From Methanoregula formicica SMSP (GTDB taxonomy: Archaea; Halobacteriota; Methanomicrobia; Methanomicrobiales; Methanospirillaceae): a stretch of DNA of 64,000 bases. Shown one piece after another: positions 13,978 through 22,448 of this stretch; the first letter of the stretch is position 1; each line of letters starts with the position of its first letter. Where the stretch lies: assembly GCF_000327485.1 (NCBI RefSeq), contig NC_019943.1, forward strand, positions 1,488,001-1,552,000, given 5' to 3'. Both the position numbers and the translations under genes were made by a program. Under the pieces are notes generated by a model. It was not told the DNA's origin and searched no databases. It worked only from the letters and a program-made list of their open reading frames with translations.

Positions 13978-14478
13978 TTATTCCCGGACCCCATTCCACG
14001 TGAGCGCTGAACCGGCAAGTTCACTCTTGTTTACCGCGTGTACCCACCGGCCGGTGAATGATCTCTTGTTCTCTGACAGTTCAAAGACGAAGAACCCGGT
14101 ATCGTCATCGCTTTCCGCATAGGTCCCGACCAGGGTATTTCCCTGTACTGTGGCGTTGAGGGACCCGGTAAAATTGCCCACGCCGGGATAGGTGTAACGG
14201 TAGTTCCCGGTCACGTCCGTTCCCGCCTGAGCAAGGTGCAGAATCGAAACCGTGCTGTTGCCGTCTTTTTCAAGCCAGGTCGAATTCCATGTCCCGGCCC
14301 ATGGCAGGGTCTCCGGTGAGGGAGGGGCAGTTGTGGTTGCGATAGCCGGGGATTCAACGGGTGCAGCCGTGGCAGCAGGTGAGGGCGTTGTGGCCGGGGC
14401 AGAGCCCGTGCAGCCGGACGCGGCCAGCATCACACAGAGGGTGCCGGCCAGGATAAGAACAAGGGTTTTTCTCATCAT
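13978..14478 (-). CDS. secreted lipoprotein with beta-rich domain
   Basis: The 166-residue precursor begins MMRKTLVLILAGTLCVMLAA with lipobox ASGC, then an Ala/Pro/Thr linker and a compact domain (WAGTWNSTWLEKDGNSTVSI, ILHLAQAGTDVTGNYRYTYP, GSLNATVQGNTLVGTYAESD, RSFTGRWVHAVNK). The repeated G-T-W, V-T-G-N-Y and L-x-G-T-Y patterns are typical of small beta-barrel secreted domains in methanogens. GGAG lies just upstream; the second ATG at 14475 has better spacing. The ligand is unknown. Confidence 0.75.
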   Translation of the reverse strand: MMRKTLVLILAGTLCVMLAASGCTGSAPATTPSPAATAAPVESPAIATTTAPPSPETLPWAGTWNSTWLEKDGNSTVSILHLAQAGTDVTGNYRYTYPGVGNFTGSLNATVQGNTLVGTYAESDDDTGFFVFELSENKRSFTGRWVHAVNKSELAGSALTWNGVRE

Positions 14479-14713
14479 GATCTCCGTACTATCTTCCCGG
14501 TAGTTTTTATGCCTGCTGCAGTGAGAATGACCGGGGGTATCATCATCGCGGGGCAGATCTATCTGCCAGCGAAAAGAATGTGATCACGATGCAGGGCCGG
14601 AGGCGGTACCCTCCGATAATCCAGGTCGATGAACGGCCCCCTTCCTGACATTTTTGTCCCTGTTCCCTTTATCGTCCAGCGAAGTCTTCGTTAATCTGGA
14701 GATTGGTGAGAGA

Positions 14714-15873
14714 ATGCTGTACAGGAAGTTCCCGCGGGCCGGTGAGGATGTCTCGATCCTCGGTTTCGGGCGCATGCGGCTGCCGGTCGAGGCAGGCCAG
14801 CAGGCCGGAGGAAAGATCGATGTGCCGCAGGCGACCCAGATGATCCGCACGGCCATCGACGCCGGAGTCAATTACATTGATACGGCCTACCCGTACCACA
14901 ACGGGGAGAGCGAGGTTGTTGTCGGAAAGGCGCTGGAAGGTGGGTACCGCGACCGGGTCTTCATTGCCACCAAGCTCCCGAGCTGGCTTGTCACTGGCCG
15001 GGAGGACATGGACAAGTTCCTTGACGAGCAGCTCGCCCGGCTCGGAACCGACCATATCGATTTCTATCTCCACCACGGGCTCGGCGCCGAGACATGGGAG
15101 AACCTTTCCCGGCTTGGCGTCCTTGAATTCCTTGACAGTGCCCGGGCTGACGGCCGGATCCGTCACCCGGCGTTCTCCTTCCACGACCCGTTCTCCGTGT
15201 TCAAAGAGATTGTCGATTCCTATGAGTGGACCTTTGCCCAGGTCCAGTACAACTACATGGACGAGCAGTTCCAGGCCGGCGCACGCAGGGCGTGAAGTAC
15301 GCTGCAGAACGGGGCCTTGGGATCGTTGTCATGGAACCGCTCCGGGGCGGCCTCCTCTCCGGCGACGTCCCCGCCATCCACCAGCATCTCATCAATGCCC
15401 CGGTCCGGCGCACGCCGTCGGAATGGGGGCTCCGCTGGGTCTGGAACCACCCGGAGGTCACGGTCGTGCTCTCCGGCATGAATGCGATGGAGCAGGTCCG
15501 GGAGAACCTTGCCACTGCAGAACAGGGCGTGGCGAATTCGCTCTCGCCCGGAGATCTTGCCGTTATCGAAACACTGCGGGACACGTTTGCCTCCCGCGTG
15601 AAGATCCCCTGCACCGGCTGCCGGTACTGCATGCCGTGCGAGAACGGCGTGGACATTCCCTCGTGCTTCATGTATTACAACCAGGCATACACTTACGAGG
15701 CAAAGGAGAAAGCACAAGGCGTGTACTTCTGGGCCCTCAATGGTTCGTTCGCCGGGGGCGTGCCGGGGTATGCATCCTGCTGTGTTGAGTGCGGGGAGTG
15801 CGAGGAGAAATGCCCGCAGCATTTTCCCATCCGGGAATACCTGCACGAGGTTAGTGAATTTTTCGGGAAATGA
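14714..15873 (+). pseudogene. aldo/keto reductase with C-terminal 4Fe-4S domain, frameshifted
   Basis: The first frame, from ATG 14714 after a GGTGA site, encodes the aldo/keto reductase barrel start (FGRMRLPVE, AIDAGVNYIDTAYPYHNGES with the catalytic Asp and Tyr, and FIATKLPSW). It ends at TGA 15293-15295 after MDEQFQAGARRA. The rest continues in another frame from about 15285: VKYAAERGLGIVVMEPLRGG, then PSEWGLRWVWNHPEVTVVLS and a ferredoxin-like tail with CTGCRYCMPC and CCVECGECEEKCP. A GC dinucleotide added near 15279-15284 would explain the shift (QAG-TQGVKYAAERG expected). Restored, it is a family member of about 385 residues. It is either a genuine recent frameshift or a sequence error, since the remainder looks intact. 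Confidence 0.85.
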
Positions 15874-15891: not shown

Positions 15892-16101
15892 ATGCCAGTA
15901 ATCACGATTGATCTATGGAAAGTAACCCCTGAAGTGAAAGCAGAACTGATCGAGAAACTGACCAGGACCGCGTCGGAGATCACAAAACTTCCGCCGCCTG
16001 CATTTTTCGTCTATGTCCGGGAGTATCCGCTCGACGCGATCGGCACGGGCGGAGTCCCGCTCGCGCAGCAGAACCTGCCGCCGCATGCGCCAAAGGAATA
16101 A
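15892..16101 (+). CDS. 4-oxalocrotonate tautomerase-like protein
   Basis: The 69-residue product starts MPVITIDLWKVTPEVKAELI, the hallmark of tautomerase-superfamily enzymes in which Pro2 becomes the N-terminal catalytic base after Met removal. The following helix (EKLTRTASEITKLPPPAFFV) and strand (YVREYPLDAIGTGG) match the family. It starts 18 nt after the aldo/keto reductase, with GAGGTAG as ribosome site, so they probably share a transcript. The substrate cannot be told from sequence. Confidence 0.88.
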   Translation: MPVITIDLWKVTPEVKAELIEKLTRTASEITKLPPPAFFVYVREYPLDAIGTGGVPLAQQNLPPHAPKE

Positions 16102-16345
16102 CAATCCCTTTTACCGGTCCCGCTCTGGCAGTGGTTAAGCGGCTGTTGCAGTGCAGCAGATTTCCTGGTGGGTGGGGGCCCTGCCCCGGACCCTGGAGAT
16201 GAGTACGCGGCGGGTAATGGAATATCGCTCTCATCAACATAGTAACAATTTTATATGCGGATGCCTATGACTTCAGCTATACAAAGCTGCAATCACTCCG
16301 GCATCTGTCGTCATTAAAAAATTACACCGGAATGGGAGATTCAAA

Positions 16346-17059
16346 ATGAAGAATATCTCAATGAACGTGTTGCCCGTGTTCCTGTTCCTTGTTCTGTTTA
16401 TCATCGTTGGCGGCTGCATAACCAAAACAACCGACAACGACAACAGCGGCATGAGCGGACCTTCGGGTCAGGTCGTGAGCGCCAATCCGGGCACACTGAA
16501 CGTTCCCGACGTGGAAACCACAGTTTCCGGGATCTCAGGGCCGGGATCCGAAGACGTGAATTATTTTTCAGACGGGAAAGATTTTCCCCTTACTCGTGAG
16601 CAGATCCTGAAACACCTGAGGACGGCCAATGAGGTTGCCAAGGAAGCGAAGGCAGCCGGCCATCACCCCTTTGGCGCAGTGCTTGTGGCGCCGGATGGCG
16701 AGACGGTGCTGATGAAACAGGGAAACATGGGGGGTCTCTCGCATGCCGAAACAGAGCTCTCGCGGCGGGCGTCTCTGCAATACGATCCTGATTACCTGTG
16801 GAATTGCACCCTGGTGACGACGTTTGAACCGTGCGCTATGTGCTCCGGGAACATCTACTGGGCCAATATCGGAAATATGGCCTATGGCGCTCCGGAAACC
16901 ACGTTGAAGAACCTGACCGGCGCAAGCAAGAGCAATCCCACGATGAACCTGCCGTCCCGCACGGTCTTTGCGGCGGGGCAGAAGCCTATCCGGGTGGCGG
17001 GCCCCTTTCCGGAACTGGAAGACGAACTGGTTGCCCCCCACAGGGACTTCTGGAAATGA
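16346..17059 (+). CDS. exported nucleoside/cytidine-type deaminase, lipoprotein
   Basis: The 237-residue product begins with a signal peptide ending in a lipobox (FIIVGGC), then a Gly/Ser/Thr linker, and from about residue 75 a deaminase of the cytidine/guanine/tRNA-adenosine class. The zinc and catalytic residues are present: H133-A-E135 in SHAETELSRRAS, and P162-C163-A-M-C166 in FEPCAMCSGNIYWANIG. The block HHPFGAVLVAPDG before the active site and YGAPETTLKNLTG after it are also typical. Such enzymes are normally cytoplasmic; here the enzyme should face outside, suggesting nucleoside or base salvage at the cell surface. It is transcribed alone; a T-rich tract follows. Confidence 0.88.
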   Translation: MKNISMNVLPVFLFLVLFIIVGGCITKTTDNDNSGMSGPSGQVVSANPGTLNVPDVETTVSGISGPGSEDVNYFSDGKDFPLTREQILKHLRTANEVAKEAKAAGHHPFGAVLVAPDGETVLMKQGNMGGLSHAETELSRRASLQYDPDYLWNCTLVTTFEPCAMCSGNIYWANIGNMAYGAPETTLKNLTGASKSNPTMNLPSRTVFAAGQKPIRVAGPFPELEDELVAPHRDFWK

Positions 17060-17921: not shown

Positions 17922-18130
17922 TGGTACGTATGTTTGCGCCGGGAGGGGATAAAACGGATTTTTCAAAATGGGGGGTTGGGACTGCCCGGTACATGAAGGG
18001 AGATGCCCGTTATTTGTTGGTGATCGCTTTTCCTGCTGACGGATTGTTGCGTGCCTGAGGGGAGAGAGGGTGAGCGGTCAAATCCGGCACGCACACGCGG
18101 GTTTTTGAGATCGGGGCGCCATTGCTATGC

Positions 18131-18814
18131 ATGGCAGAACAGGTGGAAGGAGCGATTCTCCAGCGGGACGGGTCCACGTATGCGGTGATGGTGCGATCAC
18201 CCGCCGGCCTTGTCACGCCGGAACTTCTCGAACGTGTGGCAGCGATAGCCCGGAAATACCACATCGGCACTGTGAAGATCACCTCCGGCCAGCGGCTCGA
18301 CCTCATCGGGGTTAAGAGGGAAGACCTTGATGCTGTTTTTGCAGACCTGGGCCCTGATGCCGTGCGAAGGACCGGGCCCTGCGTCCGGTACGTCCGGTCC
18401 TGCCCCGGCATACGGCACTGCAAAAACGGGACGCAGGACTCCCTTGCCCTTGCCCTTTCTCTCGAAGCAAAATACCGGGAACTGCCCTTCCCGGCGAAAC
18501 TGAAACTGGGCATCTCGGGCTGCCCCCGGTGCTGCGCCGACAGCCATACCCGGGATATCGGGATTATGGGATCAAAGGACGGCTGGACGGTACTGTTTGG
18601 CGGGAACGGCGGCACAAGGCCCCGGTTCGGCGATGTGCTGGCAACGGGTCTGACAACAGAAGAAGTGCTTGACCTGATGGACCGGTTACTGGAATATTTC
18701 CGGACGCATGCAAAACAGAAGGAACGGACCTCGCGGTTCATGGAACGCATCACGCTGGATGGACTGCGAAGCGATTTCCTCAACCTGATACCATATATCT
18801 CCCTGGAGAAGTGA
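18131..18814 (+). CDS. small sirohaem nitrite/sulfite reductase-like protein
   Basis: The 227-residue protein has the ferredoxin-like half-domain and sirohaem/4Fe-4S cluster motifs of nitrite and sulfite reductases: an Arg-rich substrate region (LVTPELLERVAAIARKYHIG and KITSGQRLDLIGV), then C-x5-C in SCPGIRHCKNG and a second Cys pair in GCPRCCADSHTRDIG. It is about half the size of assimilatory enzymes, as in the small group of sirohaem proteins common in methanogens, whose electron donor and substrate are poorly defined. The frame also has a TTG at 18122, but the ATG at 18131 fits the family. It appears to be a single-gene unit. Confidence 0.85.
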   Translation: MAEQVEGAILQRDGSTYAVMVRSPAGLVTPELLERVAAIARKYHIGTVKITSGQRLDLIGVKREDLDAVFADLGPDAVRRTGPCVRYVRSCPGIRHCKNGTQDSLALALSLEAKYRELPFPAKLKLGISGCPRCCADSHTRDIGIMGSKDGWTVLFGGNGGTRPRFGDVLATGLTTEEVLDLMDRLLEYFRTHAKQKERTSRFMERITLDGLRSDFLNLIPYISLEK

Positions 18815-21257: not shown

Positions 21258-22448
21258 ATGAGCATACGTAAAACGTTTGTCATCCTGCAGGCGTTGCTGC
21301 TGGCAGGGATGGTAATGGTACCGATGGTGAATGCCGATAAGGCCTCATCTGCATCGGATATAGTAACGCTTGTTGATAAAAATGCTATTTCAGAGGATAC
21401 TGCTCTCCAGTCTGCACGTGCTGCGGTCGAAGATTTTGTCAGCAGAGGTGCACTTGACAATAACTGGGACGGGGCAACCGTAGATCCCAAATCAGACATT
21501 ATCTATGACCTCAACGGGAAACCACTATTCTATCTCTTCTCTGTTGAGAGCAAAGGGAAAAGAATCGGTGAGATCAAGGCCGCAGCGAGCAAGGTTGTCG
21601 GGGGTGCCATTGTCACGATCGGCCCCGGCGCCGGACCTGTCGATCTGGATTCCGCCAAAACGCACGCCAGAGAGATCATCGAAAAAGAATACAAGGGAAC
21701 GGTAATCAACTCAATGACTCTGGTATGTTATGATTATCCCGACATGGCGATATTATTCAGGTTCTCTGCGCCGGGATCGAAGGAAAAAACCCTGATACTG
21801 GACGCGTATGATTTCTCAGTTATTCCGGAGTCAAAACAGGTCTCCTATTATAACGGGATCCATTCGTCGGATATCAGCACCCGTATTGCAAATGCCGAAT
21901 CCGAACAGGATTCCCTCATGAACCGGCAGACCGTATTATCAGTTAAAGCAGGGGCGACCAAGACTCTGAGCGGATTCCCCCTTTATGCTCAGCAGGCAAA
22001 TGGGTGGTGTCCTTTTGCGACAGCCCAGATGATATCCGGATACTATGGATATTCGCGAACACAATCCGGAATCGCCAGTACCATGGGAATATCAAACCCC
22101 AGTAACGGTGCCACACTCCAGGAAACCCTCTCGAATTATTATCAGCTATCTACGGCATCCGGCGGATTAGGAAAACCGAATTCCCAACTCAGGTATACCG
22201 GCATGTTCTCGTATGATGATTTTATTAGCAATCTGAGCGCAAACCGCCCCCAGCATGCAAGCCGCTATGAATCATTGTCCCTTCACGCACGTGCTGTTGC
22301 CGGGTATTCGTATTCGTCTTCATCATCACAGTATCTGTATATCTACGATCCAGGCCCGGTCAATGTGGGATCCCTGTACTGGGAAAACTGGAATACCTTC
22401 CTGTCAGGATCAAATCCGGTGCAAGGAGTTATTTTCATCAGAAACTAA
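21258..22448 (+). CDS. secreted papain/C39-like cysteine protease with prodomain
   Basis: The 396-residue precursor has a signal peptide (RKTFVILQALLLAGMVMVPM, cut after NA-D), a prodomain of about 200 residues (ALQSARAAVEDF, IIYDLNGKPLFYLFSVESKG, AAASKVVGGAIVTIG) and a C-terminal cysteine protease-like domain from about 238. Candidate catalytic residues are C251 in QQANGWCPFATAQMISGYYG, H343 in LSLHARAVAGYSY and D364 in YLYIYDPGP, the order and spacing of C39/C70-type papain-like enzymes. It is the first gene after cassette copy 1 and is followed by three exported proteins, one of which resembles a cysteine-protease inhibitor. It should act outside the cell. A paralog lies at 35494. Confidence 0.82.
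   Translation: MSIRKTFVILQALLLAGMVMVPMVNADKASSASDIVTLVDKNAISEDTALQSARAAVEDFVSRGALDNNWDGATVDPKSDIIYDLNGKPLFYLFSVESKGKRIGEIKAAASKVVGGAIVTIGPGAGPVDLDSAKTHAREIIEKEYKGTVINSMTLVCYDYPDMAILFRFSAPGSKEKTLILDAYDFSVIPESKQVSYYNGIHSSDISTRIANAESEQDSLMNRQTVLSVKAGATKTLSGFPLYAQQANGWCPFATAQMISGYYGYSRTQSGIASTMGISNPSNGATLQETLSNYYQLSTASGGLGKPNSQLRYTGMFSYDDFISNLSANRPQHASRYESLSLHARAVAGYSYSSSSSQYLYIYDPGPVNVGSLYWENWNTFLSGSNPVQGVIFIRN

Follow-up and report, generated by a model that had tools for sequence, protein, structure and literature searches.

A predicted surface lipoprotein deaminase in Methanoregula formicica that may act on small free bases

The 2.82-Mb single-contig genome of Methanoregula formicica SMSP contains the window analyzed here, a stretch of 64,000 nucleotides in which one open reading frame (ORF) encodes a predicted exported deaminase lipoprotein (Table 1). 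Upstream of this ORF, the TATA-like element TTTATATG is identical only in the close copy L012 and is changed in the other copies, and GGGA stands directly 5′ of Met1 in five of the six aligned copies, with AGAGGA at this place in the sixth, L015. Just upstream, positions 15892 to 16101 (+) encode a DmpI-like 4-oxalocrotonate tautomerase (68.6 bits against a cut-off of 70). Positions 14654 to 15873 (+) contain two overlapping frames (14654 to 15295 and 15226 to 15873) of an aldo/keto reductase that ends in a 4Fe-4S part. They look as if split by a small indel near position 15285, from either gene decay or a sequence error. A second lipoprotein-like ORF, with AASGC near its N terminus and no Pfam or NCBIfam match, lies at positions 13978 to 14478 (-). 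The next gene downstream of the deaminase gene is convergent and has no Pfam match. Farther downstream, a stand-alone 230-residue NirB/sulfite-reductase-like protein (18122 to 18814, +) consists of a ferredoxin-like half and a 4Fe-4S domain and scores far under the full-length NirB cut-off, and a C39-like cysteine peptidase (21258 to 22448, +) looks exported and has a long N-terminal part. The neighbors of the archaeal deaminase gene are different in L004, L013, L014, and L015, while L012 resembles the window immediately upstream. No transporter or catabolic gene adjoins the archaeal copies, and no functional clue was found in the neighborhood of the archaeal gene itself.

Table 1. Features of the predicted deaminase lipoprotein gene and its upstream region (positions within the window).
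Feature	Position	Strand	Details
TATA-like promoter element	16250..16257	+	weak call by eye
Shine-Dalgarno-like GGGAG	16334..16338	+	7 nt 5′ of ATG
Predicted exported deaminase lipoprotein gene	16346..17059	+	ATG start, 237 aa; PF00383 49.8 bits vs cut-off 25
Predicted lipoprotein signal peptide, residues 1-24, lipobox V-G-G-C, Cys24	16346..16417	+	core and Cys conserved in 6/6 copies; simulation; model helix 9-22
Tether, residues 25-76	16418..16573	+	low model confidence, relaxed selection, mostly deleted in L015
CDA-fold zinc deaminase domain, residues 77-237	16574..17056	+	model pLDDT, Msd Z 23.5, dN/dS
Active-site motif H133-A-E135	16742..16750	+	invariant, 20 sequences
Zinc motif P162-C163-A-M-C166	16829..16843	+	C163 and C166 invariant, P162 nearly so, 20 sequences

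The predicted protein contains a PF00383 (dCMP_cyt_deam_1) domain, and the MafB19-deam Pfam profile also matched it (33.8 bits against a cut-off of 27), beneath the PF00383 score. According to the sequence alignment, H133, E135, C163, and C166, which an earlier sequence-only reading had taken for a complete zinc deaminase active site, are all present and are invariant across 20 aligned relatives. An AlphaFold2 model built from 20 sequences places 120 residues at a pLDDT of at least 90 and no block beyond residue 80 below 74, with a helix at residues 9 to 22 and residues 24 to 74 below 50. The model matches solved members of the cytidine deaminase (CDA) fold with Z scores of about 16 to 23, the best structural match being Msd (Z, 23.5; rmsd, 2.0; 151 aligned residues), ahead of the next protein at 18.9. 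Across 10 pairs of copies, dN/dS values ranged from 0.16 to 0.39 for the domain, corresponding to purifying selection, and from 0.29 to 1.93 for the tether, corresponding to relaxed selection. The host genome carries one other PF00383 gene, a separate 161-residue ORF that we took by eye to be a dCMP deaminase. An identity as TadA was rejected at 41.4 bits against the NCBIfam model cut-off of 150. A phage gene was likewise set aside, the search having returned 11 phage records, nearly all from uncultured fecal contigs and with a best identity of 44%, and a single weak PHROGs match to a dCMP deaminase.

The N terminus, MKNISMNVLPVFLFLVLFIIVGGC, combines Lys2, a hydrophobic core (12-residue Kyte-Doolittle mean, 3.4), and a lipobox whose last residue is Cys24. 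Under a simple PROSITE-style rule based on the 12-residue Kyte-Doolittle mean, a basic residue, and the lipobox pattern, a prokaryotic lipoprotein signal with lipobox and cysteine was found in all six copies of the gene, in agreement with the clear signal noticed in the sequence-only reading. The basic N terminus, the hydrophobic core, and the lipobox cysteine are kept in every copy although core and lipobox diverge, the latter reading VGGC, VGAC, LGAC (in two copies), LSAC, and LCAC. L015 retains the signal despite the loss of most of its tether and of four residues from the core. To place these numbers against chance, the observed number of substitutions was distributed randomly over the signal of the window gene in 20,000 simulations. 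At the substitution level of the near-identical L012, 14% of the runs kept both hydrophobicity and lipobox; at the levels of the three divergent methanogen copies, the values were 0.13%, 0.36%, and 0.63%. The dN/dS of the signal itself, calculated from few sites, ranged from 0.24 to 1.18 in 10 pairs and was not low in every pair. Archaeal lipoproteins have been predicted in print, with Sec as the predicted route in nonhalophilic euryarchaea, and the lipobox cysteine matters for lipoprotein processing in Haloferax (PMC2945643).

The sequence-only reading had also called for a survey of homologs with the same fusion and had regarded the family as normally intracellular and an exported form as unusual. 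Outside the six copies, no fusion of this kind turned up among the relatives surveyed. None of the 15 bacterial loci L016 to L030 has a lipobox signal; one of them, L016, has a hydrophobic stretch reading from TTG codons 5′ of its ATG, which was taken as noncoding. The signal was also absent from 29 relatives with 43 to 67% identity from the phylum of L016's genome (398 genomes); these 29 come from 36 rows, the remainder being L034, which is the same gene as L016, and six rows without a fetched locus. The 12 annotated plasmid relatives have coding sequences of only 471 to 507 nucleotides, which leave no room for a signal and a tether. As an archaeal control, we sampled 66 other PF00383 proteins from the same archaeal phylum, a nonrandom set in which 147 rows gave 30 fetched loci, minus 4 cut by contig ends, plus 40 picked by hand. 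No lipobox signal was found among them, and in three an open hydrophobic stretch precedes the probable start. In the haloarchaeal relatives L076 to L078, no signal was seen by eye beside the nearest ATG. Both the predicted export and its unusual location are supported by the conserved signal and by these relatives without one.

The rarity and patchy occurrence of the gene speak against a central role. Among 232 searched genomes of the class, 5 carry it at an E value of ≤1e-15, M. formicica included, and its named carriers among the relatives are Methanoregula and Methanolinea. In a family search, 11 of 100 genomes matched at an E value of ≤0.001; five of these are the close copies (source genome included), and the rest are distant, among the matches listed. 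The sixth copy comes from one bacterial metagenome-assembled genome (MAG), L015, and is the only one among 46 genomes of its phylum. At L015:408-974, close to a contig end, lies this short-tether version of the methanogen lipoprotein. It may reflect cross-domain transfer or a MAG binning error, although the composition is even (GC, 0.49 to 0.55). In a midpoint-rooted tree whose long branches lie outside the group of interest, the six lipoproteins, i.e., those of five methanogens and the bacterial MAG, form one clade (100/99) that is sister to the signal-less L016 and L017 (96/90) within a mainly bacterial group. Judging from these sequences, a bacterial-type, apparently cytosolic enzyme probably gained an export signal once, on the stem of the clade. 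The simplest account would add a gene transfer between bacteria and archaea, in either direction between L015 and the methanogens.

Clues to the substrate come from the gene neighborhoods of the signal-less relatives. An NCS2 nucleobase symporter directly adjoins the deaminase gene in 7 of the 12 annotated plasmid loci (L121, L122, L123, L124, L126, L128, and L129), a 13th plasmid locus, L119, being unannotated and outside this count. Another, L125, adjoins an NMT1-type ABC set and an amidohydrolase annotated as isoxanthopterin deaminase, and L120 has a BMP ABC set and an amidohydrolase near urate hydroxylase and allantoicase. In the remaining three (L127, L130, and L131), none of these transporters is an immediate neighbor; in L127, an amidohydrolase follows two genes on, and ABC permeases lie upstream. 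By eye, 6 of 13 other loci (L018, L019, L021, L024, L028, and L030) have parts of an ABC set, an amidohydrolase resembling 8-oxoguanine deaminase, or both. Profiles identified an NMT1/THI5 binding protein in L028 and L030, an ABC ATPase and permease in L019, and an amidohydrolase in L019, L028, and L030 that matched PRK12393 first and 8-oxoguanine deaminase next. Five further loci were inspected. Immediately before the deaminase gene of L166, a binding protein, an ATPase, and a permease were seen by eye, and L165 has parts of such a set. The nearest signal-less relatives placed in context, L162 to L164, have no adjoining transporter. The bacterial gene runs of L019, L028, L030, and L125 combine a CDA-fold deaminase with an NMT1-type ABC importer and an amidohydrolase resembling 8-oxoguanine deaminase. 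That one transporter adjoins two deaminases of unrelated type suggests a single heterocycle that is imported and then loses two amino groups in successive steps. In bacteria, the substrates of the subfamily are most likely heterocyclic bases that have been taken up into the cell.

We then compared the archaeal protein with characterized systems. Msd (Msmeg3575 of Mycobacterium smegmatis; PDB 5XKO, 5XKP, and 5XKQ) is the closest solved structure, ranking first by sequence (E value, 1.5e-11 alone and 2.9e-24 with a profile) and by fold, and its entry titles name 5-azacytosine, 5-azauracil, and ammeline. It shares the fold over residues 77 to 237 and the zinc motifs, but identity is about 30%, its chain of 157 to 159 residues has neither signal nor tether, and the conserved C-terminal GPFPELEDE of the subfamily aligns only partly with it. 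The Pseudomonadota genes annotated as “nucleoside deaminase” and found by NCS2, NMT1-type, or BMP transporters belong to the same subfamily (44 to 67% identity) and have the invariant columns and GPFPELEDE in common with the archaeal protein. Unlike the latter, those surveyed have no lipobox signal, and many lie within transport or catabolic gene runs. The tRNA adenosine(34) deaminase TadA agrees in fold (Z, up to 18.9) and in motifs, whereas the archaeal protein falls below the NCBIfam TadA cut-off, as stated above, and is predicted to be exported. The secreted adenosine deaminases ADGF/ADA2 have an amidohydrolase-type fold, unlike the CDA fold. They are eukaryotic and use nucleosides or nucleotides. 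Their place of action is comparable to that predicted for the archaeal protein: in animals and Dictyostelium, they deaminate outside the cell and release ammonia (PMC12711200, PMC10358891). Among the papers searched, a set with few subscription titles, we found neither the gene itself nor any base deaminase of the CDA fold described as exported or as a lipoprotein.

The reading that we favor, at a probability of roughly 0.6, is a deaminase that is anchored in the membrane, faces outward, and acts on small free bases for ammonia scavenging or detoxification. A nucleobase-type CDA-fold zinc deaminase, common to a few Methanomicrobiales and bacteria, would be exported via the Sec-type lipoprotein signal, processed at Cys24 after export, and anchored in the cytoplasmic membrane through a lipid on this cysteine, so that a flexible tether of roughly 50 residues would hold the folded domain outside. 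In enzymes of this fold, a zinc-activated water attacks the amino-bearing carbon while a residue of the E135 type shuttles protons. Zinc would be bound here by H133, C163, and C166, with E135 as the proton shuttle, and the amino group of a small heterocyclic base of the purine, pyrimidine, or triazine type would be replaced by oxygen with release of ammonia. This would supply the cell with ammonia, or rid it of a harmful base analogue, with no need to import the base. Since the archaeal copies have no transporter or catabolic neighbors, the substrate is drawn from relatives at 44 to 67% identity that seemingly work in another compartment. No match to the nucleobase permeases PF00860 and PF02133 was found in the host genome, in line with processing of the base outside the cell instead of its import. 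More tentatively, and at somewhat less than even odds, the methanogen may use a surface free-base deaminase to draw ammonia from bases that it perhaps cannot import (no NCS1 or NCS2 permease having been found) or to disarm base-analogue antibiotics outside.

An N terminus that is an annotation artefact or not exported, with translation of a cytosolic enzyme from an internal start, is very improbable. The candidate for such a start is a GTG codon (Val44) common to the five methanogen copies; however, it is absent from L015, whose linker is mostly deleted and which retains the signal. Met6 is conserved in all six copies, but a start there keeps the hydrophobic core and the cysteine, and Met36 is common to the window gene and L012 only. 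The start codons common to all copies therefore leave the signal in place, and no conserved internal start that removes it was found. Within the signal, second codon positions change least in seven of 10 pairs and are tied for least in one; as these positions set hydrophobicity, this too counts against such an artefact, as do the cysteine kept in all copies and the ribosome-site-like GGGA before Met1. Taken together, the comparative evidence says that the signal is real. An effector acting on extracellular nucleic acid, or an antagonistic deaminase like MafB19 or the polymorphic toxins, is likewise very improbable. The MafB19-deam score above its cut-off keeps this idea, named as an option in the original proposal, alive with little support, and we rate it marginally below the artefact. 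Structure and context favor small free bases, PF00383 scores higher (49.8 bits), the relatives are located among metabolic genes, the N terminus consists of signal and tether only, and directly downstream, where the next gene is convergent, there is no same-strand immunity candidate. A toxin or defense gene was also set aside on these scores and in view of the lack of any PADLOC match.

The base deaminase of that proposal is supported by the Msd structure and by the transporter and purine-catabolism neighbors of the signal-less relatives. A surface nucleoside or deoxynucleoside deaminase, acting on nucleosides from extracellular DNA or RNA with its product bound by a BMP-type lipoprotein, is unlikely, though it is the strongest of the alternatives. 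PF00383 includes nucleoside deaminases, the model matches Arabidopsis guanosine deaminase (Z, 18.4), the Acinetobacter relative adjoins a BMP ABC set, and the host genome encodes one BMP-family lipoprotein (L132:1396-2403), so that nucleosides may be handled outside the cell. However, the 3.8-kb locus of this BMP gene contains no ABC partners. Msd, by a clear margin the best match in fold, was crystallized with bases, and the genes beside the relatives mostly encode NCS2 base symporters or amidohydrolases of the base type. Somewhat less likely still is a role in detoxification only, in which the surface enzyme would inactivate base analogues with antibiotic or mutagenic action while these are still outside the cell. 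Msd reportedly serves in mutagen removal. The nearest structure was solved with 5-azacytosine and ammeline, an exported site would catch such compounds early, and the patchy distribution fits an accessory protective gene, but it also fits scavenging, and no resistance gene was recognized nearby.

Free-base deamination at the surface remains the preferred reading. The protein belongs to a known deaminase family, probably in a new compartment, and is encoded by a sporadic gene. If this is true, acquisition of a single signal peptide would have relocated an intracellular metabolic enzyme to the cell surface, in a lineage with links to bacterial-archaeal gene transfer. Nucleobase deamination would then join the surface activities of methanogens, as an example of nitrogen scavenging or base-analogue defense outside the archaeal cell.
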